64,000 bases of DNA. It comes from Muribaculaceae bacterium. Lineage in GTDB: Bacteria > Bacillota > Clostridia > Lachnospirales > Lachnospiraceae. The stretch lies in the NCBI GenBank assembly GCA_023666425.1, contig JAMPCA010000001.1, positions 8,216 to 72,215 on the forward strand. The letters run 5' to 3'. The notes under the pieces are model-generated. The model had not been told where the DNA came from. It searched no databases and worked only from the letters and a program-made list of their open reading frames with translations. The position numbers and the translations under genes are program-made. Shown piece by piece: positions 26,834 through 52,245 of the stretch. Each line of letters starts with the position of its first letter. Position 1 is the stretch's first letter.

Positions 26834-26912
26834 ATTTACCGTCCTTTCTGGCCTGCCTGTTCGTACTGAAATATATTTCGGCAATCTCCCCGCATTTGAC
26901 AACCTTTGCCTG

Positions 26913-30617: not shown

Positions 30618-30701
30618 GATTTTTCCTCCTTGAATTTCCTTGCAACTTGCCTGTTGCAATCAATGTTTGTGAGTGTTTTTATTACTACCTACTTGCCTTA
30701 T

Positions 30702-31809: not shown

Positions 31810-31820
31810 TATCCCTCTTT

Positions 31821-32519
31821 TTATATATGTGCTTCTTCCAGCATCCGGAACTTTGCCAGATCACTCTGCGTCGTAATCTTAAAGTTCCCCTCATCGCCGG
31901 GAATCATTGCAATATCCAGCCCGAAAATAATTGCGGGCTCCGTAGAGCCCTTAATTTCTAAAATCCTATGTGGCATCAGCTGTCTGTTCGCCTCATAATA
32001 CTTTCCCAGCAAAAATGCCTCCGGCGCCTGCCCCGCATACACACAGCCGCGGTCCAGCAGCTTTGTGACCACCCTTCCGTCGCTGCTGTAATACACCGTA
32101 TCCTTCATTGGAAGCACCGGCATCACCCCGTCATGCCCCCGCAGACCCTCCAGACATTTCACAAGAATCTCCTCTGTAAGAAGCGGCCTTGCCGCATCAT
32201 GGATGAGCACCACATCCTCATCTCCTGCATATTCCCTTATATCATTCAGCCCATTCCAAATGGACAGCTGGCGATTCTCCCCCGGTTCTGAAAACCCGCG
32301 AAGCTTCTTCGCCGCGTGCAGCTTCTCTAAGGTATCTGTCAGCAGACCGTGCCAGCCAATATCCGCAACAATCTGTATCCCGTCTATTTTGTCGCTTTTT
32401 GCCAGTGTCTCAAGACAATATGCAACAACCGGCCTGCCTCCGACCTCTATGTATTGCTTGGGGATATCCCCTCCAAGCCTCGTCCCGGTGCCTCCCGACA
32501 GTACCAAAGCTATATTCAT
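31821..32519 (-). CDS. IspD/TarI-family cytidylyltransferase
   Basis: This 232-residue CTP transferase has the nucleotide-binding S-G-G-T-G-T-R-L-G...P-K-Q-Y, then H-D-A-A-R-P. The family joins CMP to methylerythritol phosphate (IspD), ribitol phosphate (TarI) or xylulose phosphate (Abp1). Overlap of 4 bp with the epimerase and closeness to a reductase favour a pentitol or pentulose substrate over isoprenoid synthesis. Both a TarIJ-like route to CDP-ribitol and an Abp-like route to CDP-arabinitol are possible. Confidence 0.75.
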   Translation of the reverse strand: MNIALVLSGGTGTRLGGDIPKQYIEVGGRPVVAYCLETLAKSDKIDGIQIVADIGWHGLLTDTLEKLHAAKKLRGFSEPGENRQLSIWNGLNDIREYAGDEDVVLIHDAARPLLTEEILVKCLEGLRGHDGVMPVLPMKDTVYYSSDGRVVTKLLDRGCVYAGQAPEAFLLGKYYEANRQLMPHRILEIKGSTEPAIIFGLDIAMIPGDEGNFKITTQSDLAKFRMLEEAHI

Positions 32520-33181
32520 CCAATCTTCATCTCCCGAATATCCTTTATGATTTCCTCATAGGGCTTGTCCTTTCCAAACAAGAGCGTCGTTCCCAGCACA
32601 AACCCGTCCATTCCCTTAGGCGCATACTCCAGAATCCGTTTTGCACTGCAGGCTCCGTCCCAAAAGAGCTCGAAATCCATCTCTTCCCTGAGCTTAATCA
32701 GCCGGGTCACCTTATTTCCTACATATGGCAGAAACATCTGCCCCGCATTTCCCGGATTCACGGACATCACCAGCACGCGCTTTACAATCCGGAGCATTTC
32801 CAGAACAGTCTCCACACTGGTTCCGGGATTGATGGCAATGCCCGGGATCATTTCCGCATCAATGATCTTTTGCAACGTTGTGGACGGGTGGTATTCCGCT
32901 TCCGGGTGAATATAGATGGTATCTCCCTTTCGCAGATGCTTAATAAAAAGATTGATATGCGTATTGGGATGCTCAATCATCAAATGCACGTCCATTGGTT
33001 TGTCCGTCGCTGACCGGATATAAGCCAGATCATTTAGGGACATGGCGTAATTCGGCACATACCTTCCGTCCATAATATCAATGTGAAAAGAATCGATGCC
33101 CGCCGCCTCCAGCGCGTGAACCTCCTTCTCCAGATTACCAAAATCCGCACACATCATCGATGCTGTCAGTTGAAAATTCAT
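32516..33181 (-). CDS. Ribulose-phosphate 3-epimerase family protein
   Basis: This is a 221-residue TIM-barrel protein. I chose ATG 33181 (MNFQLTASMMCADF); it overlaps the upstream stop as ATGA. Family motifs: F-H-I-D-I-M-D-G-R-Y-V-P-N (usually H-x-D-x-M-D-G-x-F-V-P-N), D-V-H-L-M-I and V-N-P-G-N-A-G-Q. The usual D-G-G-I near the end is D-G-A-C here, so it may be a specialised paralogue and not the housekeeping Rpe. The reaction would interconvert ribulose-5-P and xylulose-5-P, feeding the neighbouring cytidylyltransferase. Confidence 0.75.
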   Translation of the reverse strand: MNFQLTASMMCADFGNLEKEVHALEAAGIDSFHIDIMDGRYVPNYAMSLNDLAYIRSATDKPMDVHLMIEHPNTHINLFIKHLRKGDTIYIHPEAEYHPSTTLQKIIDAEMIPGIAINPGTSVETVLEMLRIVKRVLVMSVNPGNAGQMFLPYVGNKVTRLIKLREEMDFELFWDGACSAKRILEYAPKGMDGFVLGTTLLFGKDKPYEEIIKDIREMKIG

Positions 33182-35753: not shown

Positions 35754-35840
35754 GTACTTTTTTGTCAAAACCTAAATCTTCCTCCCCATACACCGATAAA
35801 TATGGTATATTATATCTATCAAACTATCACGGAGGATACT

Positions 35841-37736
35841 ATGAAAGAGAAACTAAAAGCAATCAATTTCAGCGCGGTCTGTGACGTTCTGCTGCTTATT
35901 CCTATTCTGTTTGCGGCAGCCGTCATTCCCCTTGTCGTGCGCATCACCTATTACAATCCGCAATTGTCCGGCTATTCCTGGTTTCCGGACTGGACCCTGG
36001 CCATGGATATGTTTATGTTCTATAAAAATAACGCCATGATGCTGCTGGACGGCGTACTTGCCGTTCTGTTTGTCGTGCTGCTGATCCGGCGGCGGCTCCC
36101 GGCAGCTGTCACCTATGCGCCACTGGGTATCTACCTTATATTAGTAATTATTTCATCCATTTTTTCCATTGCCCCGACACAGACATGGCACGGCTTCTAC
36201 GACATGATGGAAACTGCCTTCGCACTGTTTGGATATTGCATGATCTGCTACTACACCTTTGCGGTCGTCAGGTCTGAAACTCAAATCAAGATTATATTAT
36301 CAGTTCTTTTTCTGGGAGTATTCGTACTGTGCGTCATTGGCGTCCTCCAGTTTTTAGGGCGCGACCCATATATGAGCGACTGGGGGAAAAATCTGATTTT
36401 CCCCGCAAAGTACGCCGGATTCAAAAAGTTTCTGACACTTACCTTTGGTGAGAGACGCGTGTATGCCTCTCTTTATAACCCCAACTATGTGGGTGTGTAT
36501 GCCTGCATTATTGTTCCGTTTCTCCAGGTGCTCTCTTTCTCCATGCAAAAAAAGCGCTTCATTATTATTTATTTTGTTCTGGCGGCGCTGATCCTTACAT
36601 GTCTTGTTGGTGCAGGCTCAAAGACTGCGGTTCTCGCGATCATTCCCTGCATGATATTTGCGGCTTTCTATTATGGGAAAAAGCACTGGAAAAAACTTAT
36701 TCCGGTTTTTGCGGTATACATCGCTATATTCGCCGGGCTCAACGTCTACCAGGCCTCCTCATCGGTATTCGTCAATGCGATGGAGCAGCTGGGAGCCGAG
36801 TATATTCCCTCTGCCGAATACCATCTGACCGACATCACGCTGGGCGACGATGCTTTCACAATTACCTACGACGATACGGTGCTGGATGTGAAATACCTTC
36901 TGGATTCCGACGGCTGGTCGATTGAGGTGCGCGATCAGGGAGAAATCATCCGCGCCTATATCAATGAGGAACAGACCGGTTATGAATTCCACGATGCGCG
37001 TTTTGCGGATCTGCAGTTCATTTTCGGCGCCGACCAGCATATGAATGCAGGATTTTCCATTACCAGCGACGGACATTCCTTCTTTATTTACTATGACCAG
37101 AACCAGAATACTTATCTCTACCGCTGCCCGAACGGCAACGCCACCAAAATTTATAATGCCGACACCTTCGACTTCCCGCTGTTCCATATGCTGGGCGGCC
37201 TGAGCGGCCGGGGATATATATGGAGTAAGTCCATTCCCCTCCTGAAAAGTACCTTTATATTAGGAAGCGGACCTGACACTTATGCATTTATGTTTCCGCA
37301 ATACGACTATGTCTCCCTGATCCAGAACGGCTGGGAGGGAATTATGATTACCAAGCCCCACAACATGTATCTGCAAATGGCGGTGCAGACCGGAGTACTG
37401 TCGCTCATTGCCTTTTTGGTATTCTATCTGTGGTACATGTTTGCCTCCTTTAAACTCTATCGCGGCCGGAAGCTTGTCACTCTTGCCGAGCGCATCGGCG
37501 GAGCCATTTTCCTCTCTTCCATCTGCTTTATGATTGCCGGACTGGTAAACGACTCCACCATCGGCGTCTCGGTTGTATACTGGACGCTGCTTGGCCTTGG
37601 CTTCGCCTGCAACCGTATGGTTGCGGCACAGCCATCAGAGGCGACGGAGACGGTTCTCCCGGAGGAACCGGAGACAGTGCCTGAAACAGATACTGAAACA
37701 ACCGCCGAAACAGACAAAGTGGCAGAAATAAATTGA
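35841..37736 (+). CDS. O-antigen ligase/polymerase-family membrane protein
   Basis: This is a 631-residue polytopic membrane protein. ATG 35841 follows GGAGG by 5 bp. About ten hydrophobic segments flank a large extracytoplasmic loop (about 315-470). The Wzy_C-type region shows Y-N-P-N-Y-V-G, then G-R-G-Y-I-W and a conserved K-P-H-N-M-Y-L-Q. This family polymerises or ligates lipid-linked glycans on the outer face of the membrane. The C-terminal 50 residues are Glu/Thr/Pro-rich. It is likely to act on the product of the glycan operon beginning 2 kb away, on the opposite strand. Confidence 0.8.
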   Translation: MKEKLKAINFSAVCDVLLLIPILFAAAVIPLVVRITYYNPQLSGYSWFPDWTLAMDMFMFYKNNAMMLLDGVLAVLFVVLLIRRRLPAAVTYAPLGIYLILVIISSIFSIAPTQTWHGFYDMMETAFALFGYCMICYYTFAVVRSETQIKIILSVLFLGVFVLCVIGVLQFLGRDPYMSDWGKNLIFPAKYAGFKKFLTLTFGERRVYASLYNPNYVGVYACIIVPFLQVLSFSMQKKRFIIIYFVLAALILTCLVGAGSKTAVLAIIPCMIFAAFYYGKKHWKKLIPVFAVYIAIFAGLNVYQASSSVFVNAMEQLGAEYIPSAEYHLTDITLGDDAFTITYDDTVLDVKYLLDSDGWSIEVRDQGEIIRAYINEEQTGYEFHDARFADLQFIFGADQHMNAGFSITSDGHSFFIYYDQNQNTYLYRCPNGNATKIYNADTFDFPLFHMLGGLSGRGYIWSKSIPLLKSTFILGSGPDTYAFMFPQYDYVSLIQNGWEGIMITKPHNMYLQMAVQTGVLSLIAFLVFYLWYMFASFKLYRGRKLVTLAERIGGAIFLSSICFMIAGLVNDSTIGVSVVYWTLLGLGFACNRMVAAQPSEATETVLPEEPETVPETDTETTAETDKVAEIN

Positions 37737-39723: not shown

Positions 39724-41778
39724 TCATAGCAAATCCCGAATATCTGTCATTCGATTAAAAAACGGATCCTCCACCGTCAACCCCAGAAACGCTTTATCCC
39801 GAATAGAAAACCCATGAATCAAACGAAGAAGAATCTCATCTATCCCCTTTTCCGGCGTTCGGATTTCTTCCGGACATAGCTTTATATATTCCTTAAAATA
39901 ATCCATAATCCCAGACTGTACCTGCATGAAACATGCAATGTCCACCTCGCTGCGCGTTTCGTCCGCATAGCAGGGATTTCCTTCGCTGTCAAATTCCAGC
40001 ACCGACGGCATGGGAGAAGTAAGGATTGTCTCCAGTATATAGTACTCTTCGTAGATTGCGCTCTGAGCCCGCTCACTCTCATCATAGAATGCCTGTATGT
40101 CCAGTCCCTTATCCTTCATAAACGACTTTTCCAGCTGTAAAAAGTACAGACCCTCCAAATGGTTTGGCACCAATCTGGAGCAATACATCTGGCTTGTCCC
40201 CTTTGCCACAAAATCAAAAAAGCCAATAGAGCCCTCCCTAACGGACAGAGACTCCACATATTTAAGATTATTCTTTCGTTTCTCCTCCAGTTCCTCCAGA
40301 ATGACCTCTGTATAATCCAACAAGGCTTTTCCCTGCGTCTCCCCGTCCGGCCGCACAATTCCAAACCGCTCCTTTAGCTGCTGCCCCAGCGTGCCGCTGA
40401 ATTTCATTCCTCCAATATAAGAAATATCCTCCCTGCTCTGTACACCTGCCCTGAGTGCCGCCATGCGGGAGGTGAGTAAATACACCGACCTGTTCTCCGG
40501 TCGCAATATATCGTATAATTTCTTTATCAGAAAACCGTCCCGCGCACAGAACCAGATATTTGCAAGCTTCCGCTTCCTTACCTCCTCTGCGAACCAGAGC
40601 ACAAAGTCTGTGATCATTGGCGCCATAAATAAATATCCAATATCATATGCGCTGTCCACATGCAGCCTCTGCTCCTCATCCTCGCACAAAAAGGGACTAT
40701 TGAACACTTTACTCACAAGCATACCAAGCTTTAACCGTGAGGCGAGCGTATCCATAGAATCGCAAAAGCCCAGATATCCCATATCTTCCAGCAAATCCAT
40801 ACCACTGGGAACAGGAAAAGCCGACAGCCCCTCCTTCTGTGCGCTTTCTATATCCGCAGAACTGTCATCTCCCACATGCAGAGAAATCCTTCCTCCTAAA
40901 AGGCTCCTGAATTCCCGGAACAAATGCTGTCTCTTCCCGGTGTGATACTCGCAGGAGACCAAAAGCCCGTCATAGTCGCAGATTCCACATATTCGAAGCA
41001 TATGCGCAATCTGTTCCTGCCGGTAATACGAATCCGTAACAATATAGATTTGCTTCCCCTGCCTGTGGAGCTCCGATAGGAGCTCTGTCAGCTCCCTTCT
41101 CGGCACAACAAGCTCACAGTCCAGCTCCCACTCCAGTCTGGCAAGCTCTTCCGCAGTGGCAGAAACCGGAGATACCTGATCCAGTACGGACTGGTATATC
41201 ACTTCTAAAAAAGGGGCCTCCTCTTTCGAAAGCTCCTTTTCCGCGCTTATTCGCCGCCTTACAAAATCGTCAATATCAATTCCCCGTTCCCGCAATCGAA
41301 GTTCTAACAGCGTCACCACATCGGTCGGCAAAAGCACTTTGCGCATAATCAGTGTGTCAAACAAGTCAAAGCTTATAACCTCCACCTTCTCCGCAAGAGA
41401 AAGCAACTCTGTTTTTTTCGATCCTGCAATACCGGCAAAATGATAAGTCACCCGCTTTTGCACCAGCAAATCCTTTCCACGCACATCCAACAGCCGAATC
41501 TGATGCTCCTCACAAAATGCGCCTATCTTTTTGGCAATCGCCCTACATGACCCCGGACGCGCCACTACAATTATAAGCTGCACCCCGGCTTTCGCACAGT
41601 CCGGCAACGAAAGAATGTTCTTCCCGTAAAGTATTCCGTCCTCCCGAAAGCTGTCCAGCAGACCGACGATTTCGAATGCATCAAGCTCTGTCAGTGCTGT
41701 CTCTGTCTCTGTTCCAAGCCCATATAATGCAATCGGAATATTTTTATACTCTCCAAACAATTCTCCCAGTGACGCCAC
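39724..41778 (-). CDS. Rossmann-module protein with HAD-type hydrolase domain
   Basis: This 684-residue protein is the last gene of the glycan operon. Residues about 12-100 form a small Rossmann module (I-A-L-Y-G-L-G-T-E-T-E-T). Residues about 130-335 are a HAD domain with intact motifs: F-D-L-F-D-T-L (nucleophile Asp), I-V-T-D-S and H-V-G-D-D-S-S-A-D. The remaining 350 residues match nothing I recognise. The HAD domain could be a sugar-phosphate phosphatase; as no KdsC is seen nearby, Kdo-8-phosphate is one candidate substrate. That is inference only. Confidence 0.65.
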   Translation of the reverse strand: MASLGELFGEYKNIPIALYGLGTETETALTELDAFEIVGLLDSFREDGILYGKNILSLPDCAKAGVQLIIVVARPGSCRAIAKKIGAFCEEHQIRLLDVRGKDLLVQKRVTYHFAGIAGSKKTELLSLAEKVEVISFDLFDTLIMRKVLLPTDVVTLLELRLRERGIDIDDFVRRRISAEKELSKEEAPFLEVIYQSVLDQVSPVSATAEELARLEWELDCELVVPRRELTELLSELHRQGKQIYIVTDSYYRQEQIAHMLRICGICDYDGLLVSCEYHTGKRQHLFREFRSLLGGRISLHVGDDSSADIESAQKEGLSAFPVPSGMDLLEDMGYLGFCDSMDTLASRLKLGMLVSKVFNSPFLCEDEEQRLHVDSAYDIGYLFMAPMITDFVLWFAEEVRKRKLANIWFCARDGFLIKKLYDILRPENRSVYLLTSRMAALRAGVQSREDISYIGGMKFSGTLGQQLKERFGIVRPDGETQGKALLDYTEVILEELEEKRKNNLKYVESLSVREGSIGFFDFVAKGTSQMYCSRLVPNHLEGLYFLQLEKSFMKDKGLDIQAFYDESERAQSAIYEEYYILETILTSPMPSVLEFDSEGNPCYADETRSEVDIACFMQVQSGIMDYFKEYIKLCPEEIRTPEKGIDEILLRLIHGFSIRDKAFLGLTVEDPFFNRMTDIRDLL

Positions 41779-41789
41779 TTTGTCTCCTC

Positions 41790-42941
41790 CTACGTCCCGC
41801 CATGCAAAAATTCATTAGAAAACCAGCGAATCTTTTCATCTAAAAAGCCCCGTTCCAGCAAATCTTTTTTGATATCCAAAGCGGTTTTTTCTGAAATATT
41901 CGCAATTATCAAATGCTCATATTTTGTATTTGTTTTGTCAAATTCGTCCACCGTTTCCACGGGCAGACCCTCGCTCTTGTAATGACCCGCATTCCGGTCG
42001 AGCCACGCAACGACCTCTATATCCTTCTCCCTGCAATAGGCATATAAGCTCTGACCAAGACCTCCTGCTCCATAAATAACGATCCTGCTCCCCTTATCTA
42101 TCCCCCCATAGGGATAAAGCAAAACATTCTCGCTGTCCCAATAGGTCATATCCCGCAACACAAGATATTTTCTATAGATATCTAAATGCCGTAAAAATTC
42201 TTTGGAATTCGAAAATTCCCGCTTTAAATGTGCGATTAAGAAATCAATTCTTTCTATCTCATGTTTGTCTTTATGCTTTGTAATAGAACCCGTATGCTGC
42301 ACATAATGATAACCGCATATATCTGTAAGCAAAACTCTCTCACTGTGATAGATATATGGATATACTACTGCTGCATCTTCTCCCACGCATATTCTGTTGT
42401 CAAGTCTCCCCTGGATCCGTTTGAGCTTTTCTGTCTTATACAGCTTTGTAACCCCATGCGGCTGTATGCCATACTCAAAAAATGTCCCGCTATAAAGCAT
42501 ACTCTCTATAATCTCTTTCACATTATAGATGCCACACTTCATATTGTTCGTCACAACAGAAGAAGCTTCCCCAAAATCATAATATAAATTTGCTGCCACC
42601 ATATCCACATGAACGGCAAGCATGGCCTCCATCATTCGGGCAAAATAATCCGGCTCAATCCAGTCGTCCGCATCGACCCATATGATGTATTCACCCTCTG
42701 CAAATGTTGTGCCGGTTCTCCGCGCTTCCACTAATCCGGCATTGTTCTGATGATGCACATATATGTCTGCGTATTTCTGCGAATACCCGTCACAAACCCT
42801 GCCTGACGAATCCGTCGAGCCGTCATCGATCAAAATAATTTGTTTGTTTTCATAGGTTTGCGCGACAATACTGTCCAAACACCTCTCAATATATTTTTCT
42901 ACATTGTATACCGGGACAACTACACTCAGCAAAGGCATCAT
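41790..42941 (-). CDS. Family 2 glycosyltransferase with C-terminal Rossmann module
   Basis: This is a 383-residue GT-A enzyme: L-S-V-V-V-P-V-Y-N-V, I-D-D-G-S-T-D and the metal-binding W-V-D-A-D-D-W. After the catalytic domain (about 1-225) and a helical segment, residues 280-380 form the module I-V-I-Y-G-A-G-G-L-G...V-V-A-W-L-D, the same type found at the N-terminus of several neighbours. It probably adds a sugar to the lipid-linked repeat unit. Gaps of 11 and 17 bp separate it from its neighbours. Confidence 0.85.
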   Translation of the reverse strand: MMPLLSVVVPVYNVEKYIERCLDSIVAQTYENKQIILIDDGSTDSSGRVCDGYSQKYADIYVHHQNNAGLVEARRTGTTFAEGEYIIWVDADDWIEPDYFARMMEAMLAVHVDMVAANLYYDFGEASSVVTNNMKCGIYNVKEIIESMLYSGTFFEYGIQPHGVTKLYKTEKLKRIQGRLDNRICVGEDAAVVYPYIYHSERVLLTDICGYHYVQHTGSITKHKDKHEIERIDFLIAHLKREFSNSKEFLRHLDIYRKYLVLRDMTYWDSENVLLYPYGGIDKGSRIVIYGAGGLGQSLYAYCREKDIEVVAWLDRNAGHYKSEGLPVETVDEFDKTNTKYEHLIIANISEKTALDIKKDLLERGFLDEKIRWFSNEFLHGGT

Positions 42942-42958: not shown

Positions 42959-43918
42959 CTAAACAATCCCCGTTCCGATAATGGACTGCAGTCGAATCGT
43001 CCCCACGACGCGGCCATTCTCCACCACCGGCATACTTGCAATATTATTCGCTTTCATCTGATTGAGGGCATCCACCGCCAGACTTCCGCACTCAATATAT
43101 TTAGGAGCTCTGGTCATTACATCTCCTGCCGTCATATGATAGATATCCGCGCCCTTTTCCAGCTGTCTGCGCAAATCCCCGTCGGTAATCACGCCAAGAA
43201 GCCTCTGCTCCATATCGGTAATTGACACAATTCCCAATCCCTTACTGCTAAGCAGAATAATAATCTGTGGCAGCTGCATGTCCTCGGAACCCACCGCATT
43301 GTCATCTCCTGCCACCATCAGCTCGTCCACTGTGATGGTAATCTTTTTCCCCAATGCCCCGGCAGGATGATATCTCCCGAAGTCAATATCACAAAAACCG
43401 TTCCGCTCACTTACGGCCACCGCTAAAGCGTCTCCATAACACAGTGCCTGCGTCGTGCTGGAGGTCGGCGCCAGCCCCAGAATACACGCCTCGCCATAAT
43501 CCGGCAGCACCTGCACGATATCCGCATATTTTGTCATCGCAGAGCCTGCTTTCCCGGTAATGGCGACAACGACCGCACCCGACAATCGAATCGCTGGCAG
43601 GATGCGGTTAATCTCATCGCTCTCCCCGCTGTGACTGATCGCAATCACGATATCCTCCCGGCTTACCATCCCCAAATCCCCATGCAGAGCCTCCGCCGGA
43701 TGCAGAAAAAAGGAGGAAGCCCCCAGGCTGGCAAAAGTCGCGGCAATCTTGCGCGCAATATGCCCCGATTTACCCATTCCGGTAACAATGACTTTTCCCT
43801 TACAGCCGACTATCAGATCAACAATTTGTGAAAAAACCGCGCCGAGACAGTCCCTCGTCGCTGACAGTGCCTCGATTTCCCTGTCAAATACATTCCTTCC
43901 CCTTGAGACCGCATCCAT
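42959..43918 (-). CDS. kpsF: Arabinose-5-phosphate isomerase (KdsD/KpsF type)
   Basis: This 319-residue protein has a SIS sugar-isomerase domain (about 35-175; G-M-G-K-S-G-H-I-A-R-K, S-H-S-G-E-S-D-E) and two CBS domains (about 205-319). It has the full domain layout of KdsD/KpsF/GutQ enzymes, which convert ribulose-5-phosphate to arabinose-5-phosphate, the precursor of Kdo. The next gene upstream is KdsA, 5 bp away, which strongly supports this role. In Gram-positive bacteria this enzyme is uncommon. Confidence 0.88.
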   Translation of the reverse strand: MDAVSRGRNVFDREIEALSATRDCLGAVFSQIVDLIVGCKGKVIVTGMGKSGHIARKIAATFASLGASSFFLHPAEALHGDLGMVSREDIVIAISHSGESDEINRILPAIRLSGAVVVAITGKAGSAMTKYADIVQVLPDYGEACILGLAPTSSTTQALCYGDALAVAVSERNGFCDIDFGRYHPAGALGKKITITVDELMVAGDDNAVGSEDMQLPQIIILLSSKGLGIVSITDMEQRLLGVITDGDLRRQLEKGADIYHMTAGDVMTRAPKYIECGSLAVDALNQMKANNIASMPVVENGRVVGTIRLQSIIGTGIV

Positions 43919-43923
43919 CGCCT

Positions 43924-44718
43924 CTATACCTCCGTCTCCTGCACCGCGGCATAAACTCTCAAAAGCTTCTTTAACAGCCTTTCCACCTCATCCAGGCGCA
44001 CCATATTGGATCCGTCAGACAGCGCCTGCTCTGGCTCCGGGTGCACCTCCATAAATAAAGCGTCCGCCCCCGCCGCGATTCCCGCTTTGGCCAGCGGTTC
44101 CACATAACAGCGGTTCCCTCCGCTTACAGTTCCGTTCCCTCCGGGCTTTTGCACACTGTGGGTTGCATCCATGACCACCGGATACCCCAGCTTTTTCATC
44201 TCCACAATTCCGGTCATATCCACGACAAGCGTATTGTAGCCAAAGCTGGTTCCCCGTTCACACAGCAGAATGCGGCGGCTTCCGCTCTCCTCGATTTTCC
44301 TGACTACATTTTTCATATCCCACGGTGCTAAAAACTGCGCTTTCTTTACATTGATAAGGCATTCTGTCTTTGCCGCTGCCACCAGCAAATCGGTCTGCCT
44401 GCACAAAAATGCCGGAATCTGAATCAGATCCGCCACCTGCGCGGCTTCGTTCGCCTGCCAGGGCTCGTGTATATCCGTCGCTATTTTCAGACCGTAAGTA
44501 TCCTTCACCTTTTGCAGCAGCGCAAGCCCCTTTTCGATTCCCGGCCCCCGGTAGGAGGACAGGCTGGTTCTGTTCGCCTTGTCAAAAGAAGCCTTAAAAT
44601 AATAATCAATATCCAGTCTCTGCGCAATTTCCTTCATCTCCCGCGCAACCCACATCAGATTTTCTTCCGATTCTATCACGCAGGGGCCTGCAATCAGTGT
44701 AAACTTCTCTAAAGTCAT
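43924..44718 (-). CDS. kdsA: 3-deoxy-8-phosphooctulonate synthase
   Basis: This 264-residue TIM-barrel enzyme condenses arabinose-5-phosphate with phosphoenolpyruvate to Kdo-8-phosphate. Motifs: I-A-G-P-C-V-I-E-S, F-K-A-S-F-D-K-A-N-R, C-E-R-G-T-S-F-G-Y and M-D-A-T-H-S-V-Q. Cys13 in I-A-G-P-C is the metal ligand of the metal-dependent class (the metal-independent class has Asn). It overlaps the CMP-sugar synthetase gene by 4 bp. Both size and motifs are typical of the Gram-negative enzymes. Confidence 0.92.
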   Translation of the reverse strand: MTLEKFTLIAGPCVIESEENLMWVAREMKEIAQRLDIDYYFKASFDKANRTSLSSYRGPGIEKGLALLQKVKDTYGLKIATDIHEPWQANEAAQVADLIQIPAFLCRQTDLLVAAAKTECLINVKKAQFLAPWDMKNVVRKIEESGSRRILLCERGTSFGYNTLVVDMTGIVEMKKLGYPVVMDATHSVQKPGGNGTVSGGNRCYVEPLAKAGIAAGADALFMEVHPEPEQALSDGSNMVRLDEVERLLKKLLRVYAAVQETEV

Positions 44719-45356
44719 GCTCCCTCCACCATCCTTACCGCCATATCATAATCCTGCTGCTCATCAATATCCACCGCTTCCATACCGCTTACCTCCTGAA
44801 TATAGGGGCGAAAACCAATCCGGCGGCGGTGCTCGGTAAATACTTCTTTTTGAAACATGTAAAAGCCGCTTGTCTCCACCCAAATGGGCTCCATATCCTG
44901 CGTCCGCGGAACATCATTCAGATTATAATTGACAGGCTCGTTTTTGTACCACGCAAAGGTCTGTATCCGCTCTGCAGAAAAGGCGGAATCGTTTTCACCC
45001 TGCAATACATGCTCCAACGCGTTTGCAATAGAAGAAGCCTGCAAAAAGGGAGACGTCGTATGAGCGAGAATGTATACCTGTGCATCGACCTCCCGGATAA
45101 AGCTCTCATAAATCTCAAAGCCCTTTACGAGATCACCGTCTAAGCTTTCGCTCCGTCTCAGAAACTTTGCCCCATCGGGAAGATACCCGCAGACTGCCGG
45201 ATCGCTGCAATATACATACACATCATCAATTCGCTCTACCTGCAGCAATGAATTCACAATATGCCAGCAGAGCGGATGCCCCGCTATCGGCAGAATATTT
45301 TTGTGCGGCAGCCTCTGGGAATCCAGCTTAATCGGTACAAAAGCAACCACCTTCAT
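44715..45356 (-). CDS. CMP-sugar synthetase (KdsB/NeuA-type cytidylyltransferase)
   Basis: This 213-residue cytidylyltransferase begins F-V-P-I-K-L-D-S-Q-R-L-P-H-K-N-I, the CTP-binding signature of the acylneuraminate/Kdo cytidylyltransferase family. It also has H-T-T-S-P-F-L and an acidic metal-binding M-E-A-V-D-I-D-E near the end. The sequence looks closer to NeuA-type than to classical KdsB, but placement directly before kdsA suggests that it activates Kdo or a Kdo derivative as CMP-sugar. It overlaps both neighbours by 4 bp. Confidence 0.8.
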   Translation of the reverse strand: MKVVAFVPIKLDSQRLPHKNILPIAGHPLCWHIVNSLLQVERIDDVYVYCSDPAVCGYLPDGAKFLRRSESLDGDLVKGFEIYESFIREVDAQVYILAHTTSPFLQASSIANALEHVLQGENDSAFSAERIQTFAWYKNEPVNYNLNDVPRTQDMEPIWVETSGFYMFQKEVFTEHRRRIGFRPYIQEVSGMEAVDIDEQQDYDMAVRMVEGA

Positions 45357-46960
45357 ACTCGTTCCTCCTCGAAAAAATTATATGTGACGGGCAGACCGTA
45401 CCGCAGATCCCTCTCTGAGAGATCGTCCCAGAGGCAGGCTTTCATCAGCTGTGCTAAATGCATATCAAAGGCCGCATTCTGCTCCTTCGTCATTCCCTTC
45501 TGTACTGCCTCCTGCAAGGCCGTTTCTATCTCAGACCGGTCCCTGACTTCGTAGGCACAATTCTTTCCCTGAATCGCGCTTCTCCCCACCGGGAGCACTG
45601 GCTTTCCATACATCAGCGCCTTATATTCCACCGCCGACGCCATACAGACAGTCACATCGGACATTTGAATGAGACTGTCCACATCGCGGTCCAGAACCAG
45701 AATTATCCCGGAGTCAATATCTGCAATATCCGGCAGATTTCCCTTATTATAATGCGGATGCGGCTTAAAAATCAAATTCCAGTCATTTCTGCGGCATATG
45801 TCATACAGAAATGCCAGCATCTCCTTTGAGGACTGAAAGCAATGGCTCACATACTGATACCAGTAGTCTGACGCAGGATTCATGCCCATCCCTTCATCAT
45901 CCATCCCCGCCACAAATACCGTTTTCCTGTCAGCATCCAGCTTCGCCAGACACTCATCATCTGTTGTCGTTCTGTGAAAGATTCCTGTATCTCTCTGTGA
46001 ATCTATGATATAAGCTTTTACCGCTCCTGCCTTGTCAATCTCTTCCTTTTCCACTTCGATATCCAGCAGCTTCTGCGGATTCAGCGCATACTCTCCCTGC
46101 CCCTGAATCCCTTTTCTGTCTACCTGATAGGTACCGGGTATCCAGCCAAACTCCATAAAACCAATAGGAATCTGATGTACCTCTGCCACCCTGCTAAGCA
46201 CATATCCCTGAAAATTCCATGCCGCCCATACGATTATTCTTTTTGCTTCCAAAATCATCAGCAGCTGCTCATAATACTCATACATAAGCGCAAGACACTG
46301 CTTTGTGCTGTCCGCATCCTCCACACGCTTTCTGTGCATGATTTCTAAAATCTTTTCGTTCTCGCAGCCTTGTCCCGGCTCCTCCGCTTTCAGCGCCTCC
46401 CTGTACTCCCTGGTTTCATACCAGTTACTCAATAAAGGCAAATCAATCACGTCCCAGCCATATTTTTCAATTACGCCCGATGTGTCCATTCCTTCACAGT
46501 CCGTCAGAATGATACACTGCTCATTCTTATGCGCTTCCTGATAAGCGGCAAGAAAATTGAGCATAGTTCCGTTTTGGCGCATGGTAAAAACCGGGATAAA
46601 CAACAATGTGGTGTTTTTGTAATTCTTTACGGTTGCAAATTCCCTGCACTGTTCTATGCTTTCACGATATGTAATCTTTTTATGATCACAGAGCATATCA
46701 TAGGTAATGAAATCCGTCCCTGCCTTCAATCCCCTTGCGGTCAGATCGTCTACAATCTCTGCATAAACCTTGCACATAATAATTACAAATAATCCCTGCC
46801 AGTCCTCTATGGCTTCGGGAGACACCACCTTTTTTCCATAAAACTCCTCTCCAAAATAATTGGAGTCAATAAAAAACGACGGTTCTATTTTCGCATTATT
46901 CTCTAAATAAGCCCTGCAGAAAGTACCCACTCCCCAGAATACTATGCTTTTTTCCTTCAT
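45353..46960 (-). CDS. Rossmann module fused to KpsS/KpsC-like glycosyltransferase
   Basis: This is a 535-residue protein. Residues 1-100 form the small Rossmann module (I-V-F-W-G-V-G-T-F-C). The rest resembles capsule-synthesis proteins of the KpsS/KpsC kind: I-F-K-P-H-P-H-Y and C-M-A-S-A-V-E-Y-K-A-L-M-Y-G-K-P-V-L-P-V-G. KpsC and KpsS are retaining beta-Kdo transferases in Gram-negative capsules, so a Kdo-transferase role is attractive here beside kpsF, kdsA and the CMP-sugar synthetase. The homology is read by eye and remote; other CDP- or CMP-dependent transferases are possible. Confidence 0.6.
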   Translation of the reverse strand: MKEKSIVFWGVGTFCRAYLENNAKIEPSFFIDSNYFGEEFYGKKVVSPEAIEDWQGLFVIIMCKVYAEIVDDLTARGLKAGTDFITYDMLCDHKKITYRESIEQCREFATVKNYKNTTLLFIPVFTMRQNGTMLNFLAAYQEAHKNEQCIILTDCEGMDTSGVIEKYGWDVIDLPLLSNWYETREYREALKAEEPGQGCENEKILEIMHRKRVEDADSTKQCLALMYEYYEQLLMILEAKRIIVWAAWNFQGYVLSRVAEVHQIPIGFMEFGWIPGTYQVDRKGIQGQGEYALNPQKLLDIEVEKEEIDKAGAVKAYIIDSQRDTGIFHRTTTDDECLAKLDADRKTVFVAGMDDEGMGMNPASDYWYQYVSHCFQSSKEMLAFLYDICRRNDWNLIFKPHPHYNKGNLPDIADIDSGIILVLDRDVDSLIQMSDVTVCMASAVEYKALMYGKPVLPVGRSAIQGKNCAYEVRDRSEIETALQEAVQKGMTKEQNAAFDMHLAQLMKACLWDDLSERDLRYGLPVTYNFFEEERV

Positions 46961-46962
46961 TT

Positions 46963-48129
46963 CTAATTACGCTCCCTCTGCCTTGCCGCAGGAACTACAT
47001 AATTTTTACTATTACTCCCATGACATCTTCTGCACATACTTAAATATCCTTTTTCAGAATATCCCATATTAAATTCCAATAGCAGCTTCCTTCCCAAATC
47101 TCCCTCCGGAAGCGAAGTCAAATCCAAAAAATCCTCTTCTCCTATATGATAGCCCAGATTATCCGACACTGTCCGGGCCATAACACAAAAATAGAGCCTT
47201 CCATTTCTGGTTTCTCTGCAGGGAGTAGCACAAAGATCAAACTTCCGGATAATCTCTTTTTCCTCTCCCTCGTCTATATAATTTGCAAACCCATAATCCC
47301 ACCATTCTTCATCCTCTTTTCCCATGTTATATAAAACTCCGGCTCCCGCCAGCAGCTTTTCCAGTTTTTCATACTGATCATGTAAGGCTGGAATCGACCT
47401 TGTATAATTCGAAATCCGAACCAGAACCCCATACTTTTGGCAACTGTCTAATAACTCCCTCCCGGGAAGAATTGTTCCGTTTGTTGTAATACTGAATGTT
47501 CCGATCTTATCCCTGTACTTGTCTCCTATATATCGAACTGCATATTCCAAATCTGCATATAATAAGGGTTCTCCCCCAATCAATACAAACTCATGGATAT
47601 AGTCTACTTTAGAAAAGAATAAATCTGCGGAATTGTAAACATCCTCCAGGCGCATATCCTCTGTATTCCGATCCACCGCATAACACGCATGTGCACAGTC
47701 CGCACACTTTAAGGTACACCGCTCGGTCACACATATTTGTGCAAGATTCATAAACAGAAGATTCTTTTTATAAAACATATACAAAGGAAAAATTCTGTTC
47801 AAAAACCCCTCAGAATAGTAATAGGTACAGTTATCCTGCTTTAATTGTCTGCTAATTTCCTGTTCATGGGCAGAATTTGCCGCAATAATTATCGTCTCCT
47901 CCTTTGCATTCTCCAGATACCACTCGTAGGAATGCACAATCTCCCCGCAAAAACCGCTTATCTGCTTTTCCCCGCTGTTATCTATAAACCCTGCAAACAT
48001 ATCAAATTTAGATAATGTCACATATAATCCACGGCCAATATCCCCGGCGCCAAAGACATAAAAAGAACGGTTATCCAGATTCGGAATCCTTAGCTTGTCC
48101 AACTCTGATCCCTTGTGAGTCCATTTCAT
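46963..48129 (-). CDS. Radical SAM protein with N-terminal Rossmann module
   Basis: This is a 388-residue protein. The Rossmann module (F-Y-V-F-G-A-G-D-I-G, about 20-110) precedes a radical SAM domain with C138-x3-C142-x2-C145 (C-T-L-K-C-A-D-C) and G-G-E-P-L-L. Further cysteines near the C-terminus (C-A-T-P-C and C-R-R-C-H) suggest a SPASM-like auxiliary cluster. The reaction is unknown; in a glycan operon it could modify a sugar or a carrier. It overlaps the upstream glycosyltransferase by 4 bp. Confidence 0.75.
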   Translation of the reverse strand: MKWTHKGSELDKLRIPNLDNRSFYVFGAGDIGRGLYVTLSKFDMFAGFIDNSGEKQISGFCGEIVHSYEWYLENAKEETIIIAANSAHEQEISRQLKQDNCTYYYSEGFLNRIFPLYMFYKKNLLFMNLAQICVTERCTLKCADCAHACYAVDRNTEDMRLEDVYNSADLFFSKVDYIHEFVLIGGEPLLYADLEYAVRYIGDKYRDKIGTFSITTNGTILPGRELLDSCQKYGVLVRISNYTRSIPALHDQYEKLEKLLAGAGVLYNMGKEDEEWWDYGFANYIDEGEEKEIIRKFDLCATPCRETRNGRLYFCVMARTVSDNLGYHIGEEDFLDLTSLPEGDLGRKLLLEFNMGYSEKGYLSMCRRCHGSNSKNYVVPAARQRERN

Positions 48130-49223
48130 AATAATACTTTCCCTTCATTTATGATTTCCTTTACCTGTGTGTGTCTCAAATCGCGGCTGAACGCCCTCTT
48201 TTTATCCACCCACGAGCCAGCATAATGGTGTACGGAAAAGGAATTCTCTGTTTTATATAGCTGCCCGGTATAACCATCTAACGCATTCAGCACCTGCGTC
48301 GGATAAATCGTCATTCCCTCCAGTACTTGCGTTCGATTGCCTCCCCGCATCCCCCATTTCACCATGGCTCCTGTTTCCAGCTCCGGGCACGGCGTATCAT
48401 AAACTCTGCCATCCTCCTTAAGAAACACCCTGTCCTGATACAAGTCCATCAGCCTCTTAATTATGATATGATGTGCCATTGCCCCAAATCCTAATCCCGT
48501 GGCTACAACTCCCGGAAACATCAGCCCGCAATATGCCTCATTTTTTCGCAACGGATCCAGATTTTTCAGTAATTCCACATCTGTATCCAAATATATTCCA
48601 CCATATTCATAAACGACCTTTAGACGGAAATAGTCCGACACAAATGCATACTTTCCGCAATCATATGCCTGCCTTACAAATAGATTTTCATTCAAATCAC
48701 AATTATCTTCGTTCCACTCTTTAATCTCATAATCCGGGCAAAAACGCCGCCAGCTCTCCATACACCGCTTATATAAATCCGGTAAACTGCCTCCTCCAAA
48801 CCAGCAATAATGGATGGTGGGAGGAATAGAATATGCTTTGTTCTCCTCCCAGTCAAACTGCTCCTGCAGGGGTGCGCACGCCATATAACGATATATGTAA
48901 CACCTCGTGTTTTCCAATTCAGGATAGCTTTCTAACTGCCTGTATATCTCATAAATATATGTAGACGTAATGAGAATGGCATCCTCACTGTCTATGCTGC
49001 TTCTCAATTCTTCCGGGGATATGACCGGATACTCTGCCTCTCCTATCTTGTAAGTGGTTCCGCACCTATGATTATCTGCAATCCCCTTAAGCTTTTTGTT
49101 CCATTCCAAGTATCCAAACTGTCCAAGCATACCAGCCAGTTCCCCCCCTGCGCCAAAACAGTACAGGCTTCCAGCCTTTTGCTTTTCTAACAGTTCTTCG
49201 ATATTAGAATTGCTAAATCTCAT
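48126..49223 (-). CDS. GT32-like DXD glycosyltransferase with Rossmann module
   Basis: This is a 365-residue protein. An N-terminal module (L-Y-C-F-G-A-G-G-E-L, about 18-115) is fused to a capsular glycosyltransferase of the GT32/OCH1 type: I-P-P-T-I-H-Y-C-W-F-G-G-G, S-D-Y-F-R and the metal-binding Y-L-D213-T-D215. Such enzymes add single sugars, often mannose, galactose or glucose. It lies between the TPP enzyme and the radical SAM gene in the same transcript. Confidence 0.82.
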   Translation of the reverse strand: MRFSNSNIEELLEKQKAGSLYCFGAGGELAGMLGQFGYLEWNKKLKGIADNHRCGTTYKIGEAEYPVISPEELRSSIDSEDAILITSTYIYEIYRQLESYPELENTRCYIYRYMACAPLQEQFDWEENKAYSIPPTIHYCWFGGGSLPDLYKRCMESWRRFCPDYEIKEWNEDNCDLNENLFVRQAYDCGKYAFVSDYFRLKVVYEYGGIYLDTDVELLKNLDPLRKNEAYCGLMFPGVVATGLGFGAMAHHIIIKRLMDLYQDRVFLKEDGRVYDTPCPELETGAMVKWGMRGGNRTQVLEGMTIYPTQVLNALDGYTGQLYKTENSFSVHHYAGSWVDKKRAFSRDLRHTQVKEIINEGKVLL

Positions 49224-49270: not shown

Positions 49271-50998
49271 CTATTCCAAAAACGGATACAAATCGTCAAA
49301 CTCCGCCGCTTTTAGGGAACCATCGGGCATCACACGCGATGCAATCCTTGGCTCAATCGGCGCAAACTCCTGAACCATTACCTCACAGACCACCGGTCCT
49401 TCCATGTCCAGCACTTCCTCAAGCTTCTGCCGCAGATCATCCTCCGCCGTAATCCGAACGGCCGTAAGCCCGTAGGCCTGCGCCACCTTACAGAAATCCG
49501 GCGTCTGCAAACCGCTGTCCGGCCCAACCCCCAAAAATCGGTCGTTCATATAATTGTGCTGGTTATGCCGAATCAGCATATAACCGTTATTATTGTACAC
49601 AAACAGCTTGACCGGGAGCTTGTGATACGCCATTGTCGCAAATTCCTGTATATTCATCTGGGTGCTTCCATCTCCCGACAATGCAAGTACCTGCCGCCCC
49701 GCCTGACATGCGCCGATCGCGGTTGCCCATGAACCCATACTGGAAAAACCGCCGGAAGCCAGATAACGCTGCCCCCTTTTCAGCTTCCAGCTCTGGGACA
49801 CCATACAGTATACGCTTCCGGTATCCACCACAATATTACTGTCCGCAGGGGCAAGCACAGACAACTGCTCTGTAAAGTAATAGGCATTCAGCGGTTTCTG
49901 CGCGCGGTACTCCGGCTTTACAACCGGATAGCGTTCCTTGTTCTCCATGCAGAAGTGAATCCACTGTGTATGATCCTCCAGTGTCTCTCCCTCCAGTTGT
50001 CCCAAAAGTCTCTCCAAAAAGACTTTGGCATCCTGCCTATACTTGTGCTGAATCGGAACCGCATCGCGGACTAATTCCTTTTCATCAATATCAACCATAA
50101 TTTTAACCGCATGTTCTGCCAGACGCTCTGGGTAATAGCCGATTGTTGACACAGATAAGCGGCTTCCCAGAATCAGAAGTACGTCGCACGCCTGTACCGC
50201 GAAATGAGAAGCACGGTCGCCATAGCCGCCCGGTCTGCCCACATAGTACGGCGCATCCGAAGCAATCACATCAATTCCACCGCGGGAAGTAACCACCGGA
50301 ATCTGATATTTATTGCTTAACAGCTCTAACAGCTCTGCCGCGCCTGCGCTCCGCACTCCAAAGCCCGCCAGAATCAGGGGCTTCTTCGCTTCTAAAATAA
50401 TCCGGGCAATCGATGCGTAATCAATTGCATCCATCTCCTCTGCCGTCGGCTCATATCCCTCCATAGCCTCCGGCACCTGCCGGTTCTGAATGTCTACAGG
50501 GACGTCGATCCACACCGGACCCGGTCGTCCTGCGGTTGCATAATAATACGCTTCCTCCAATATTCTGCGGGTATCCTCCGGCCTCATAATGGTCGCACAG
50601 TACTTTGTGATACTCTGCACCACCGGCTCCACAAGCATACTCTGGCAGGCATTCTGCCGGATTCCGCTGTCGAGTGCATACTGGAGCAATCTGGAATTCG
50701 CCTGCCCGGATATAGCAAACACCGGAGTGGAGTCAAAATAGGCCTGCGCAATTCCCGTAATCGCATTCGTCACTCCCGGCCCAATCGTGACAAGGCAGGC
50801 GCCGGGAACATGGTTCACCCGCGCGTATCCGTCCGCCGCCATTGCAGCCGCCTGTTCATGGTGACAGCACACAGCCTCCAGCTCTTCATTGCGGTATAGC
50901 GCATCCGTCAGCCACATCGCAGAGCTGCCGGACACCATATACACCCGCTCACAGCCCTTTTTCTGCACAAAATCAAATATGTAATCCGCTACAGTCAT
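49271..50998 (-). CDS. Acetolactate-synthase-like TPP enzyme
   Basis: This is a 575-residue three-domain TPP enzyme. I chose ATG 50998 (MTVADYIFDF) because AAAGGTG lies 9 bp upstream; an earlier in-frame ATG has no site. The catalytic Glu lies in C-C-H-H-E-Q-A-A-A-M, and the TPP/Mg motif is G-D-G-S-T-Q-M-N with a late N-N-N-G-Y. It resembles IlvB and the YerE enzyme that adds a two-carbon unit to a CDP-keto-deoxysugar. No IlvN-type small subunit is nearby. In this operon, starting with RfbF and RfbG, a sugar-branching role is more likely than amino acid synthesis. Confidence 0.75.
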   Translation of the reverse strand: MTVADYIFDFVQKKGCERVYMVSGSSAMWLTDALYRNEELEAVCCHHEQAAAMAADGYARVNHVPGACLVTIGPGVTNAITGIAQAYFDSTPVFAISGQANSRLLQYALDSGIRQNACQSMLVEPVVQSITKYCATIMRPEDTRRILEEAYYYATAGRPGPVWIDVPVDIQNRQVPEAMEGYEPTAEEMDAIDYASIARIILEAKKPLILAGFGVRSAGAAELLELLSNKYQIPVVTSRGGIDVIASDAPYYVGRPGGYGDRASHFAVQACDVLLILGSRLSVSTIGYYPERLAEHAVKIMVDIDEKELVRDAVPIQHKYRQDAKVFLERLLGQLEGETLEDHTQWIHFCMENKERYPVVKPEYRAQKPLNAYYFTEQLSVLAPADSNIVVDTGSVYCMVSQSWKLKRGQRYLASGGFSSMGSWATAIGACQAGRQVLALSGDGSTQMNIQEFATMAYHKLPVKLFVYNNNGYMLIRHNQHNYMNDRFLGVGPDSGLQTPDFCKVAQAYGLTAVRITAEDDLRQKLEEVLDMEGPVVCEVMVQEFAPIEPRIASRVMPDGSLKAAEFDDLYPFLE

Positions 50999-51040
50999 AT
51001 CATTTTTCACCTTTCCATATTCTTTCATTGAATAAACAGT

Positions 51041-52222
51041 CTATTTATCTACCCTATATTTCGCCTTGAGCATCTCCTTCTGCTCTTCTGTATAAAAATA
51101 ATCCATTCTATCATTTCCAATATAATATTTTTCAATAACTTCCTTTGGAATCACTAACTCCTTCTTAACATCTGCATATAAATACTTGTATAGCTTTTCC
51201 CCGCCGACATTTGCATTTACAATTTGAAAATCTTTTACACCAATGAAATCACCTATTATCTCTCTGTTTTCATTCAAATTCTCTACCTTTAAAACCAATA
51301 TATCCCACTTTCCCTCTCTAATAAATCCATAACCTTTTTCTCTATTAAAAGGATATTGAAAAATATCAATATTCGTCAAATCTTTAAAATGGTCATCAAA
51401 CCAGTCAAATTCTTCTCCGTGCTCCGACTCACACTGCATTAGTAAATGCTTTCTAACTCCACTACATAGATCTGACAAAATTCTTTCATCATTCTTTTCG
51501 GCTAAAATATTAAATTCCGCAAAATATTCAAAATACCCAGATATCCCCCTTGCGATAGGTTCCCTTACTAATGTTATTATTTTTATCCTTTCATGCGACT
51601 CTTGAATATAATGCTTAAATCTCTGTTGTCGCGTAAAAAAATGTATTTGGACAACAGGAATTTCCATCAAATTCAATGAGCGATTCAGCGTTGAGGAACC
51701 TACTTTCCCCGACTGAAAAACCAAAACACCTATCTCTCGATGCAATAACAAATTGGTCATCCATTGACGTGTTACATTTTCTTCGACCCTTCCCTCCCAA
51801 ACATATGAAATGTACATTTTCCGCATCAAGAGAAATGAATTACGAAATGAATCATTTATTTTTTTCGACATAATATTTAACTCTACCGCAATTTTCAATC
51901 CCCCATAAGTATATATACCATGTGTATGAATTCCAAAATCCATGATATCTTTCAGCATGTCTTCCGCATACCTAACACTACTAATAATTATAATTGTCCG
52001 AACATCATCTGCAAGCGATTTAATTGCTTCTCTCCCTAAGACAGCATGTCCCTTTATAATTTTCCCCTGCTTATTCTTATCATATACTCCACAAATTTGT
52101 AATCCCATTCCATCCAAAAGTTCTATCGTTTTTTGTCCATAGTCTCCAGCCCCCCATATAAGAACATTGCTCTCAAAAAGAATGTTAATATCTTTAACTA
52201 AATCCATATCTCTAATCTTCAT
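51041..52222 (-). CDS. Sulfotransferase-like protein with Rossmann module
   Basis: This is a 393-residue protein. I place the start at ATG 52222 (MKIRDMDLV), 11 bp after GGAGG; longer TTG/ATG starts are in frame. The Rossmann module (V-L-I-W-G-A-G-D-Y-G) covers about 12-105. The rest resembles PAPS-dependent or capsular sulfotransferases: V-F-Q-S-G-K-V-G-S-S-T-L for the 5'-phosphosulfate loop and L-V-R-E-P-I-A-R-G-I-S-G-Y-F for the 3'-phosphate site. It would sulfate or otherwise decorate the glycan. The coding DNA is clearly more AT-rich than the TPP gene beside it. Confidence 0.65.
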   Translation of the reverse strand: MKIRDMDLVKDINILFESNVLIWGAGDYGQKTIELLDGMGLQICGVYDKNKQGKIIKGHAVLGREAIKSLADDVRTIIIISSVRYAEDMLKDIMDFGIHTHGIYTYGGLKIAVELNIMSKKINDSFRNSFLLMRKMYISYVWEGRVEENVTRQWMTNLLLHREIGVLVFQSGKVGSSTLNRSLNLMEIPVVQIHFFTRQQRFKHYIQESHERIKIITLVREPIARGISGYFEYFAEFNILAEKNDERILSDLCSGVRKHLLMQCESEHGEEFDWFDDHFKDLTNIDIFQYPFNREKGYGFIREGKWDILVLKVENLNENREIIGDFIGVKDFQIVNANVGGEKLYKYLYADVKKELVIPKEVIEKYYIGNDRMDYFYTEEQKEMLKAKYRVDK

Positions 52223-52245
52223 AACGTTCAATTCCTCCATATCTA

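Follow-up and report, generated by a model that had tools for sequence, protein, structure and literature searches.

What is a Kdo pathway doing in a monoderm bacterium? Kdo is a sugar familiar mainly from the outer membranes of other bacteria. It serves as a marker of Gram-negatives, and the enzymes that make it serve as drug targets in them. The window analysed here, a stretch of 64,000 nucleotides from a monoderm, Blautia-like bacterium, holds a cassette of four genes, all on the minus strand, in the order of a gene for a 535-aa protein (45353-46960), a CMP-sugar synthetase gene (44715-45356), kdsA (43924-44718) and an arabinose-5-phosphate isomerase gene (42959-43918). A first-pass annotation had placed these open reading frames (535, 213, 264 and 319 aa), and their coordinates bear it out, with 4-base overlaps between the 535-aa gene and the synthetase gene and between the latter and kdsA, and the isomerase gene lying 5 bases downstream of kdsA. 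Two flagellin genes, unmentioned in that annotation and the main correction to it, flank the operon, which is set among flagellar genes. The flagella are probably decorated with Kdo, because the Kdo genes sit in a stretch of sugar genes between two flagellin genes. We lean, if only by a little, towards a cassette that supplies CMP-Kdo, or an 8-carbon ulosonate very close to it, to a cytoplasmic O-glycosylation of flagellin.

KdsA and the isomerase

The identity of KdsA (264 aa, 43924-44718, minus strand) is firmly established from its sequence, which scores 394.9 bits against TIGR01362 (equivalog cut-off 314) and finds the KDO8P synthase 1fwn as its top match in the PDB with 311 bits, compared with 104 bits for the top DAH7P synthase. 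Aligned with 1fwn, the protein carries AGPC at position 10 and KANRTS at position 47; we take KANR(S/T)S to be the substrate motif of KdsA and the Cys to be metal-binding. Its earlier placement in the metal-dependent class is kept, and arabinose-5-phosphate is the predicted substrate. Equally firm is the assignment of the KpsF/KdsD arabinose-5-phosphate isomerase (319 aa, 42959-43918, minus strand; PF01380 and PF00571), which scores 272.7 bits against TIGR00393 (KpsF/GutQ subfamily, cut-off 203.7) and 158 bits against the E. coli arabinose 5-phosphate isomerase 2xhz, contains the motifs GMGKSGH, SGESDEI and YHPAGALGK, and falls below the KdsD equivalog cut-off NF008141 (301 < 505 bits). The SIS domain assigned to it in the first-pass annotation stands, while the two CBS domains appear as one listed stretch in the domain search.

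With both enzymes above curated cut-offs and LpxC absent, the earlier claim of a Kdo-type octulosonate pathway in this Lachnospiraceae genome is supported. No LpxC was found in any of the 22 genomes with KdsA, the source genome included, a control having matched in E. coli and three others; the absence of lipid A genes, noted earlier for the window, extends to LpxC in the genome itself. The KdsA cassette recurs in other monoderm genomes, also in agreement with the earlier claim. The underlying KdsA scan took the best 80 of 587, G116 and G216 being one genome by their coordinates and counted once; the 17 genomes reached through their loci may be incomplete.

The synthetase and the phosphatase step

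In the place of KdsB the cassette encodes a PseF/NeuA-like putative CMP-ulosonate synthetase, here called X (213 aa, 44715-45356, minus strand). It passes the PF02348 cut-off (70.5 bits, cut-off 22.6), in keeping with its first description as a CMP-sugar synthetase, and lies below every NCBIfam cut-off, PseF TIGR03584 giving 60.9 of 205.7 bits. That X is itself a KdsB was rejected, the best KdsB model reaching 38.7 of 255 bits. When X and KdsB were separated by HMMs built in this analysis (nine X sequences aligned), X was found in 10 and KdsB in 5 of the 17 monoderm KdsA loci, and never both together; these counts include an X fragment 7 kb from KdsA (L004), an X with one intervening gene (L009), an X of only 28% identity (L013) and a KdsB fragment (L007). 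X at 41-52% identity is also found where KdsA is absent, which disqualifies it as the sole marker of Kdo and counts against the preferred reading of CMP-Kdo for flagellin. All ten such loci have a DRE-TIM aldolase adjoining X, a possible second ulosonate route.

The phosphatase step had been tentatively given to the HAD-domain protein at 39724-41778 (684 aa, minus strand; PF00702, 34.8 bits > 26.4). HAD phosphatases have a motif I with an Asp at D+2, the acid/base residue. In this protein motif I reads FDLFDTL at 137, with Phe at D+2, and the proposal is unlikely because the acid/base residue is missing; relatives carry a KdsC instead, with motif I DVDGxLTDG in L003, L129 and L153. An HMM built in this analysis finds KdsC in 10 of the 17 monoderm KdsA loci, and the KdsC of G022 lies above the curated TIGR01670 cut-off. 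The source genome has no protein over that cut-off, the best of four matches scoring 24.9 of 106.95 bits.

The candidate transferase

The 535-aa protein (45353-46960, minus strand) combines a PglD_N-like N-terminal part, assigned by eye and from a homologue search, with a PF05159/BFO_1060-like glycosyltransferase domain. Its likeness to KpsS/KpsC, proposed at first pass, holds in part: the PF05159 match is real but marginal (22.0 bits, 20.7 in a second search, cut-off 20), the NCBIfam BFO_1060 score is 26.8 bits against a cut-off of 200, and KPHP at 399-402 corresponds to (K/R)XHP, which passages of PMC12887879 give as the CMP-binding motif of retaining Kdo transferases. However, the QXXXD motif is absent from the strand where it is expected (VFVAGMDDEGM, placed by eye), the sole match of this type being QKLLD at 296-300, outside that strand. 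Because QXXXD is lacking at the expected place despite the K-x-H-P, the protein is a candidate Kdo transferase only. A counterpart in L002 is 90% identical. Homologues were found in 6 of 200 family genomes, five of them matching over only about 80-110 N-terminal residues, and residues 105-535 as query matched in 5 of 391 class genomes, in four of these over 60-90 residues. PF05159 matches occur in 4 of 291 class genomes, the source included, the other three proteins having a seemingly different architecture by eye. A PDB sequence search gave a single match with an E value of 0.7, the AlphaFold2 model, built from a two-sequence input, has a pLDDT of 31, and the literature searched holds nothing under the name BFO_1060.

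The surrounding island

The further genes of the neighbourhood described here likewise lie on the minus strand. Downstream of the isomerase gene lies a GT2 glycosyltransferase (383 aa, 41790-42941; PF00535, 122.8 bits); on the other side follow a radical SAM protein (46963-48129; PF04055, 43 bits; 97% in L002), a glycosyltransferase with a DXD region (48126-49223; PF04488, 61.8 bits), a TPP enzyme of the acetolactate synthase type (49271-51028; PF02775/02776/00205) and an NKWYS-family protein (51041-52249; PF10364, 62.7 bits > 25.1). The last is presumably sulfotransferase-like; Pfam labels PF10364 a putative capsular polysaccharide synthesis protein, and a homologue adjoins CysD/CysNC in G022. 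Beyond it are two proteins with citrate-lyase-ligase-type nucleotidylyltransferase domains (52246-56758; PF08218, 218.1 and 215.6 bits), an FkbM methyltransferase-domain protein (56795-57988; PF05050, 47.9 bits), an FAD amine-oxidoreductase-type protein (59133-60416; PF01593, 82.5 bits), a split transketolase-like pair (60419-62259; PF02779/PF02780 and PF00456), a CDP-glucose 4,6-dehydratase (within 62168-63996; TIGR02622, 323.7 > 278.45) and, by reading of the sequence alone, a glucose-1-phosphate cytidylyltransferase-like gene (63226-63996) cut by the window edge. The flagellin on one flank (29160-30659; PF00669, 156.8 bits; PF00700, 98.2 bits) is followed by a zinc alcohol dehydrogenase, an IspD-type cytidylyltransferase and a ribulose-phosphate 3-epimerase (30760-33244; PF08240, PF01128 with 114.9 and PF00834 with 164.7 bits), and lies beside GT2-like proteins (24440-29063; PF00535, 35.3 bits in 26913-29063, the others by similarity and by eye) whose homologues adjoin flagellin in G022, G184 and G213.

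In the proposed route, KdsD would convert ribulose-5-phosphate to arabinose-5-phosphate, which KdsA would condense with PEP to Kdo-8-phosphate; some phosphatase, to which none of the genes is assigned, would remove the phosphate, and the PseF-like X would form CMP-Kdo. Kdo would then be attached to flagellin, or to a glycan already bound to it, by a transferase that is most likely the 535-aa protein in Blautia and a protein of the Maf/GT42 fold in sister genera; further genes of the island may extend this glycan and perhaps sulfate it.

Alternative explanations

The surface glycan envisaged in the first-pass annotation holds in part for several other monoderm genomes, where the cassette lies near flippase-size proteins. 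That Kdo is a residue of a cell-wall or capsule-like polysaccharide, the flagellin neighbours being incidental, seems to us improbable. Eight of the 22 KdsA genomes have no flagellin match, which speaks for it, as do the proteins with at least seven predicted membrane segments in 8 of the 17 monoderm KdsA loci, L002 included. The window itself encodes a 644-aa protein with 11 predicted membrane segments (35802-37736); it lies on the strand opposite to the operon and outside it, as does its likely counterpart in L002. A hydropathy scan of the operon, however, found neither a polytopic membrane protein nor a KpsMT ABC exporter of the group 2 capsule kind, flagellar genes lie on both sides of the operon here and in G200, and KdsA glycan islands near flagellin appear again in G022, G184 and G213, so that 5 of the 14 flagellin-bearing KdsA genomes (G000, G200, G022, G184 and G213) show the arrangement. 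An island in another Lachnospiraceae genus unites KdsA, KdsD and KdsC with X, flagellin, PAPS genes and a protein of the Maf type, and a third island contains a true KdsB. The further suggestion of a reducing-end linker as in group 2 capsules finds no support here, the operon lying between flagellins without a polytopic protein and QXXXD being absent.

About equally improbable is that the pathway ends in a modified octulosonate, or in some other ulosonate of 8-9 carbons, rather than in Kdo itself. X resembles PseF/NeuA and not KdsB, its relatives adjoin a different synthase, the transferase candidate falls outside known Kdo families by motif, and the operon is rich in tailoring genes. Against this, KdsA and KdsD are both present, comparable islands contain a canonical KdsB (G184) or a TIGR01670 KdsC (G022), and the mutual exclusion of X and KdsB points the other way. 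Far less probable is that the cassette lacks a dedicated role and is left over from an ancestral LPS pathway. Passages of PMC5007114 describe kdsABCD together with lpx genes in diderm Firmicutes, but 21 of the 22 monoderm KdsA rows form, with three Paludibacteraceae, a 24-row clade (support 99/87) from which the Negativicutes rows are separate, and the tree and the LpxC result together led us to reject descent as a lipid A relic. The frames are moreover intact, the genes overlap, and a 97%-identical KdsA of a Blautia MAG is placed in the same island.

Flagellin decoration remains the preferred reading. A broader version is more doubtful: that motile Lachnospiraceae of the gut, lacking lipid A, natively modify flagellin with Kdo through a non-LPS KdsD/KdsA route, with X representing a new family of CMP-Kdo synthetases and with transferases that have the Maf/GT42 fold or, in Blautia, are unclassified, the DRE-TIM pyruvate aldolase replacing KdsA in sister loci as a second octulosonate route. 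A native Kdo pathway for flagella in gut Firmicutes would, if true, break the Gram-negative-marker rule and extend the known flagellin sugars by an octulosonate; it would also matter for the ways in which gut commensals vary the flagellin seen by the immune system. X is a directly testable CMP-Kdo synthetase candidate, and the DRE-TIM aldolase is possibly a new ulosonate synthase.

Comparison with known systems

The KdsD-KdsA-KdsC-KdsB pathway of Gram-negative LPS and group 2 capsules is matched by a KdsA and a KpsF/KdsD isomerase above cut-offs, and by KdsC and KdsB in sister loci; unlike it, the present locus has no LpxC, no KdsC over cut-off, a PseF-like protein for KdsB and a flagellar neighbourhood. 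Known flagellin glycosylation islands make nonulosonic acids (Pse, Leg) and use Maf transferases. The locus shares with them glycan genes beside flagellin, a CMP-ulosonate synthetase, an operon free of polytopic proteins and, in sister genera, Maf-type PF01973 proteins, but its KdsA route is 8-carbon rather than 9-carbon, and its transferase candidate differs, the source genome giving no PF01973 match at E <= 0.001 (the control matched in four archaea only). The 535-aa protein resembles the retaining Kdo transferases KpsS/KpsC (GT107), WbbB (GT99) and KrkA (GT140) in its weak match to PF05159 and in having (K/R)XHP, and differs from them in an extra N-terminal part and in the lack of their nucleophile motif, QXXXD, where it is expected. 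Among Gram-positive ulosonates, the passages of literature seen offered Kdn in the teichulosonic acid of Streptomyces (PMC7831098) and flagellin nonulosonates (PMC11339370) and none beyond these; titles and abstract beginnings, among the matches listed, mentioned neither native Kdo on flagellin nor a Kdo pathway serving a Gram-positive flagellum. The nearest precedent, in passages of PMC11339370, is a Clostridium Maf that in engineered E. coli transfers Kdo to flagellin from CMP-Kdo. It shows that Kdo can be placed on flagellin, but reflects donor promiscuity in an engineered host, the native sugar being a legionaminic acid derivative, whereas here the Kdo genes are native.

Gene content of the proposed Kdo cassette

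The four open reading frames that the first-pass annotation had read as a Kdo pathway are all present as it described them, on the reverse strand: a 535-aa KpsS-like protein (45353..46960), a 213-aa PseF/NeuA-like CMP-ulosonate synthetase standing in place of KdsB (hereafter X; 44715..45356), KdsA (43924..44718) and a KdsD/KpsF isomerase (42959..43918), with a 4-base overlap at each junction among the first three in reading order. KdsA passes the TIGR01362 cut-off (394.9 vs 314 bits) and contains the AGPC cysteine and a KANRTS motif, its closest solved structure being KDO8P synthase 1fwn (311 bits), with DAH7P synthase distant (104 bits). The isomerase exceeds the TIGR00393 cut-off (272.7 vs 203.7 bits) and stays below that of the narrower KdsD equivalog (301 of 505). 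X misses every NCBIfam cut-off, the nearest model being PseF (60.9 of 205.7 bits), and in the PDB matches PpNeuA first (68.9 bits), a mammalian-type CMP-NeuAc synthetase second (39.4) and CMP-Kdo synthetase 1gq9 third (32.1 bits, residues 2-121).

An Asp acting as acid/base is typical of HAD phosphatases at a motif position where the 684-aa HAD protein (39724..41778, reverse strand), reading FDLFDT, has Phe, and its proposed role as KdsC in this window is not upheld. Relatives read FDLFDT (L002, a Blautia MAG), FDVFGT (monoderm locus L020) and FDIFDT (genome G103), and a more distant one (L135:8933) has no such motif. Nothing in the own genome exceeds the TIGR01670 cut-off (best 24.9 of 107); Kdo-8-P is assumed to be dephosphorylated by a HAD phosphatase unrelated to this protein.

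The gene of the 535-aa protein lies directly upstream of X, and its product matches PF05159 (22.0 bits vs 20) and carries a KPHP motif. According to two papers, a KPHP-type CMP-binding motif is common to sialyl- and Kdo-transferases, and QXXXD is the nucleophile motif of GT99, GT107 and GT140 (PMC12887879, PMC10148158). QXXXD was not found at the expected place in the 535-aa protein, and PF01973 matches nothing in the own genome. Its position and one motif make the protein a candidate CMP-sugar transferase, perhaps an inverting one or one distinct in some other way.

Genomic context

The window covers C11:8216-72215 of the own genome (2.74 Mb, 98.11% complete). Flagellin and GT2-like genes lie at its left end, while on the right the gene row runs on past the window edge into the adjoining stretch L086, with radical SAM and GT2 genes recognised by eye and another gene whose product falls just short of PF04464 (20.4 of 22.1 bits). 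Next come transporter genes together with a binding protein of the sulfonate type (TIGR01728, 250.7; cut-off 163.5), CysNC (848 bits; cut-off 715) and CysD (505; cut-off 413), and then flagellin, FliD (Pfam) and FlgL (TIGR02550, 150; cut-off 127). Another gene matches FliW best, yet below cut-offs, and FliS, FlaG and FlgK were named by eye. The operon takes in window 39724-63996 and L086:231-4201, together ~28 kb, and a simple hydropathy scan found no protein in it with more than one membrane segment. The closest KdsA in the genome collection among the matches listed (97%) is that of the Blautia MAG, at 915500, likewise flanked by flagellins (901822 and 940149) and with the same surrounding genes, but no CysD/CysNC beside flagellin.

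In two genera, flagellin islands come with CysD and CysNC, which serve PAPS synthesis, and with an NKWYS protein (L086:7268-9992 with window 51041-52249; L129:16128-19999, in another Lachnospiraceae genus), suggesting that the flagellin glycan may be sulfated. Next to flagellin, 30760-33244 encodes an alcohol dehydrogenase, an IspD-type cytidylyltransferase and a ribulose-phosphate epimerase, suggesting that CDP-ribitol or another CDP-polyol may feed into the same glycan. An acetolactate-synthase-like TPP enzyme (49271-51028), a split transketolase (60419-62259) and a CDP-glucose 4,6-dehydratase, all of one operon, suggest a putative branched CDP-sugar. Two large proteins (52246-56758) contain citrate-lyase-ligase nucleotidylyltransferase domains, unexpected for a glycan operon.

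Distribution of KdsA and X

Among the best 80 of 587 KdsA loci, the 17 from monoderms (L002-L017, L020) have X in 10 cases, KdsB in five, neither in two and both in none, with KdsC in 10; in the other 63, no score for X exceeds 47 bits, and 30 have KdsB. KdsA exceeds the cut-off in 6/200 Lachnospiraceae genomes (one per genus), including G052, where it is divergent and outside the monoderm clade. Three Paludibacteraceae (Bacteroidota) sequences (L019, L023, L052) nest within that clade, pointing to probable KdsA transfer between gut lineages.

X also occurs, at 41-52% identity, in 10 of these 200 genomes with no KdsA over cut-off, and in all ten loci (L153-L162) it adjoins a DRE-TIM (HMGL-like) protein with a (L)DCTLRDG-type motif, about 530 aa long in nine (as at L153:694-2310) and 336 aa in L161 (6745-7755). 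All five that were family-tested match PF00682, with 4-hydroxy-2-oxovalerate aldolase as nearest NCBIfam model (76-97 of 229 bits), and the pairing suggests that an ulosonic acid may be made here by a pyruvate aldolase. KdsC-like genes occur in five of the ten loci (both of two tested exceed the TIGR01670 cut-off) and KdsD (60%) in one, L161, after the aldolase gene; an eleventh locus (L163, X at 33-34%) has no such aldolase within the 7.5 kb fetched. In the tree of X, 11 KdsA-associated rows and two DRE-associated rows group (96/96) inside DRE-associated diversity, the long-branched L013 standing apart from those 11. Either one ulosonate is made via two routes and handled by X, or the substrate of X changed; since X occurs beside a DRE-TIM aldolase without KdsA, it is less certain that X makes CMP-Kdo.

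Flagellin or envelope glycan

LpxC was found in none of the 22 KdsA genomes examined. Flagellin matches occur in 14 of these and are absent from eight; in five of the 14, against a rough expectation of 1.2 (P 0.0045, kinship and draft fragmentation ignored), flagellin lies within 25 kb of KdsA, and in the other nine it does not. With the second Blautia left out, the same rough calculation gives 4/13 (P 0.019). Proteins with at least seven membrane segments lie within the fetched stretch of eight of the 17 monoderm loci, including L002, there outside the operon. The cassette thus appears to serve flagellar islands and envelope glycans alike.

Native Kdo on flagellin is described in none of the titles and abstract openings of the papers listed. 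Kdo as the reducing-end linker of a surface glycan, after the manner of group 2 capsules, had been the earlier proposal and finds no support in this window; the best reading, which we rate slightly above even, is a native CMP-Kdo-type pathway within a monoderm flagellin glycosylation island.
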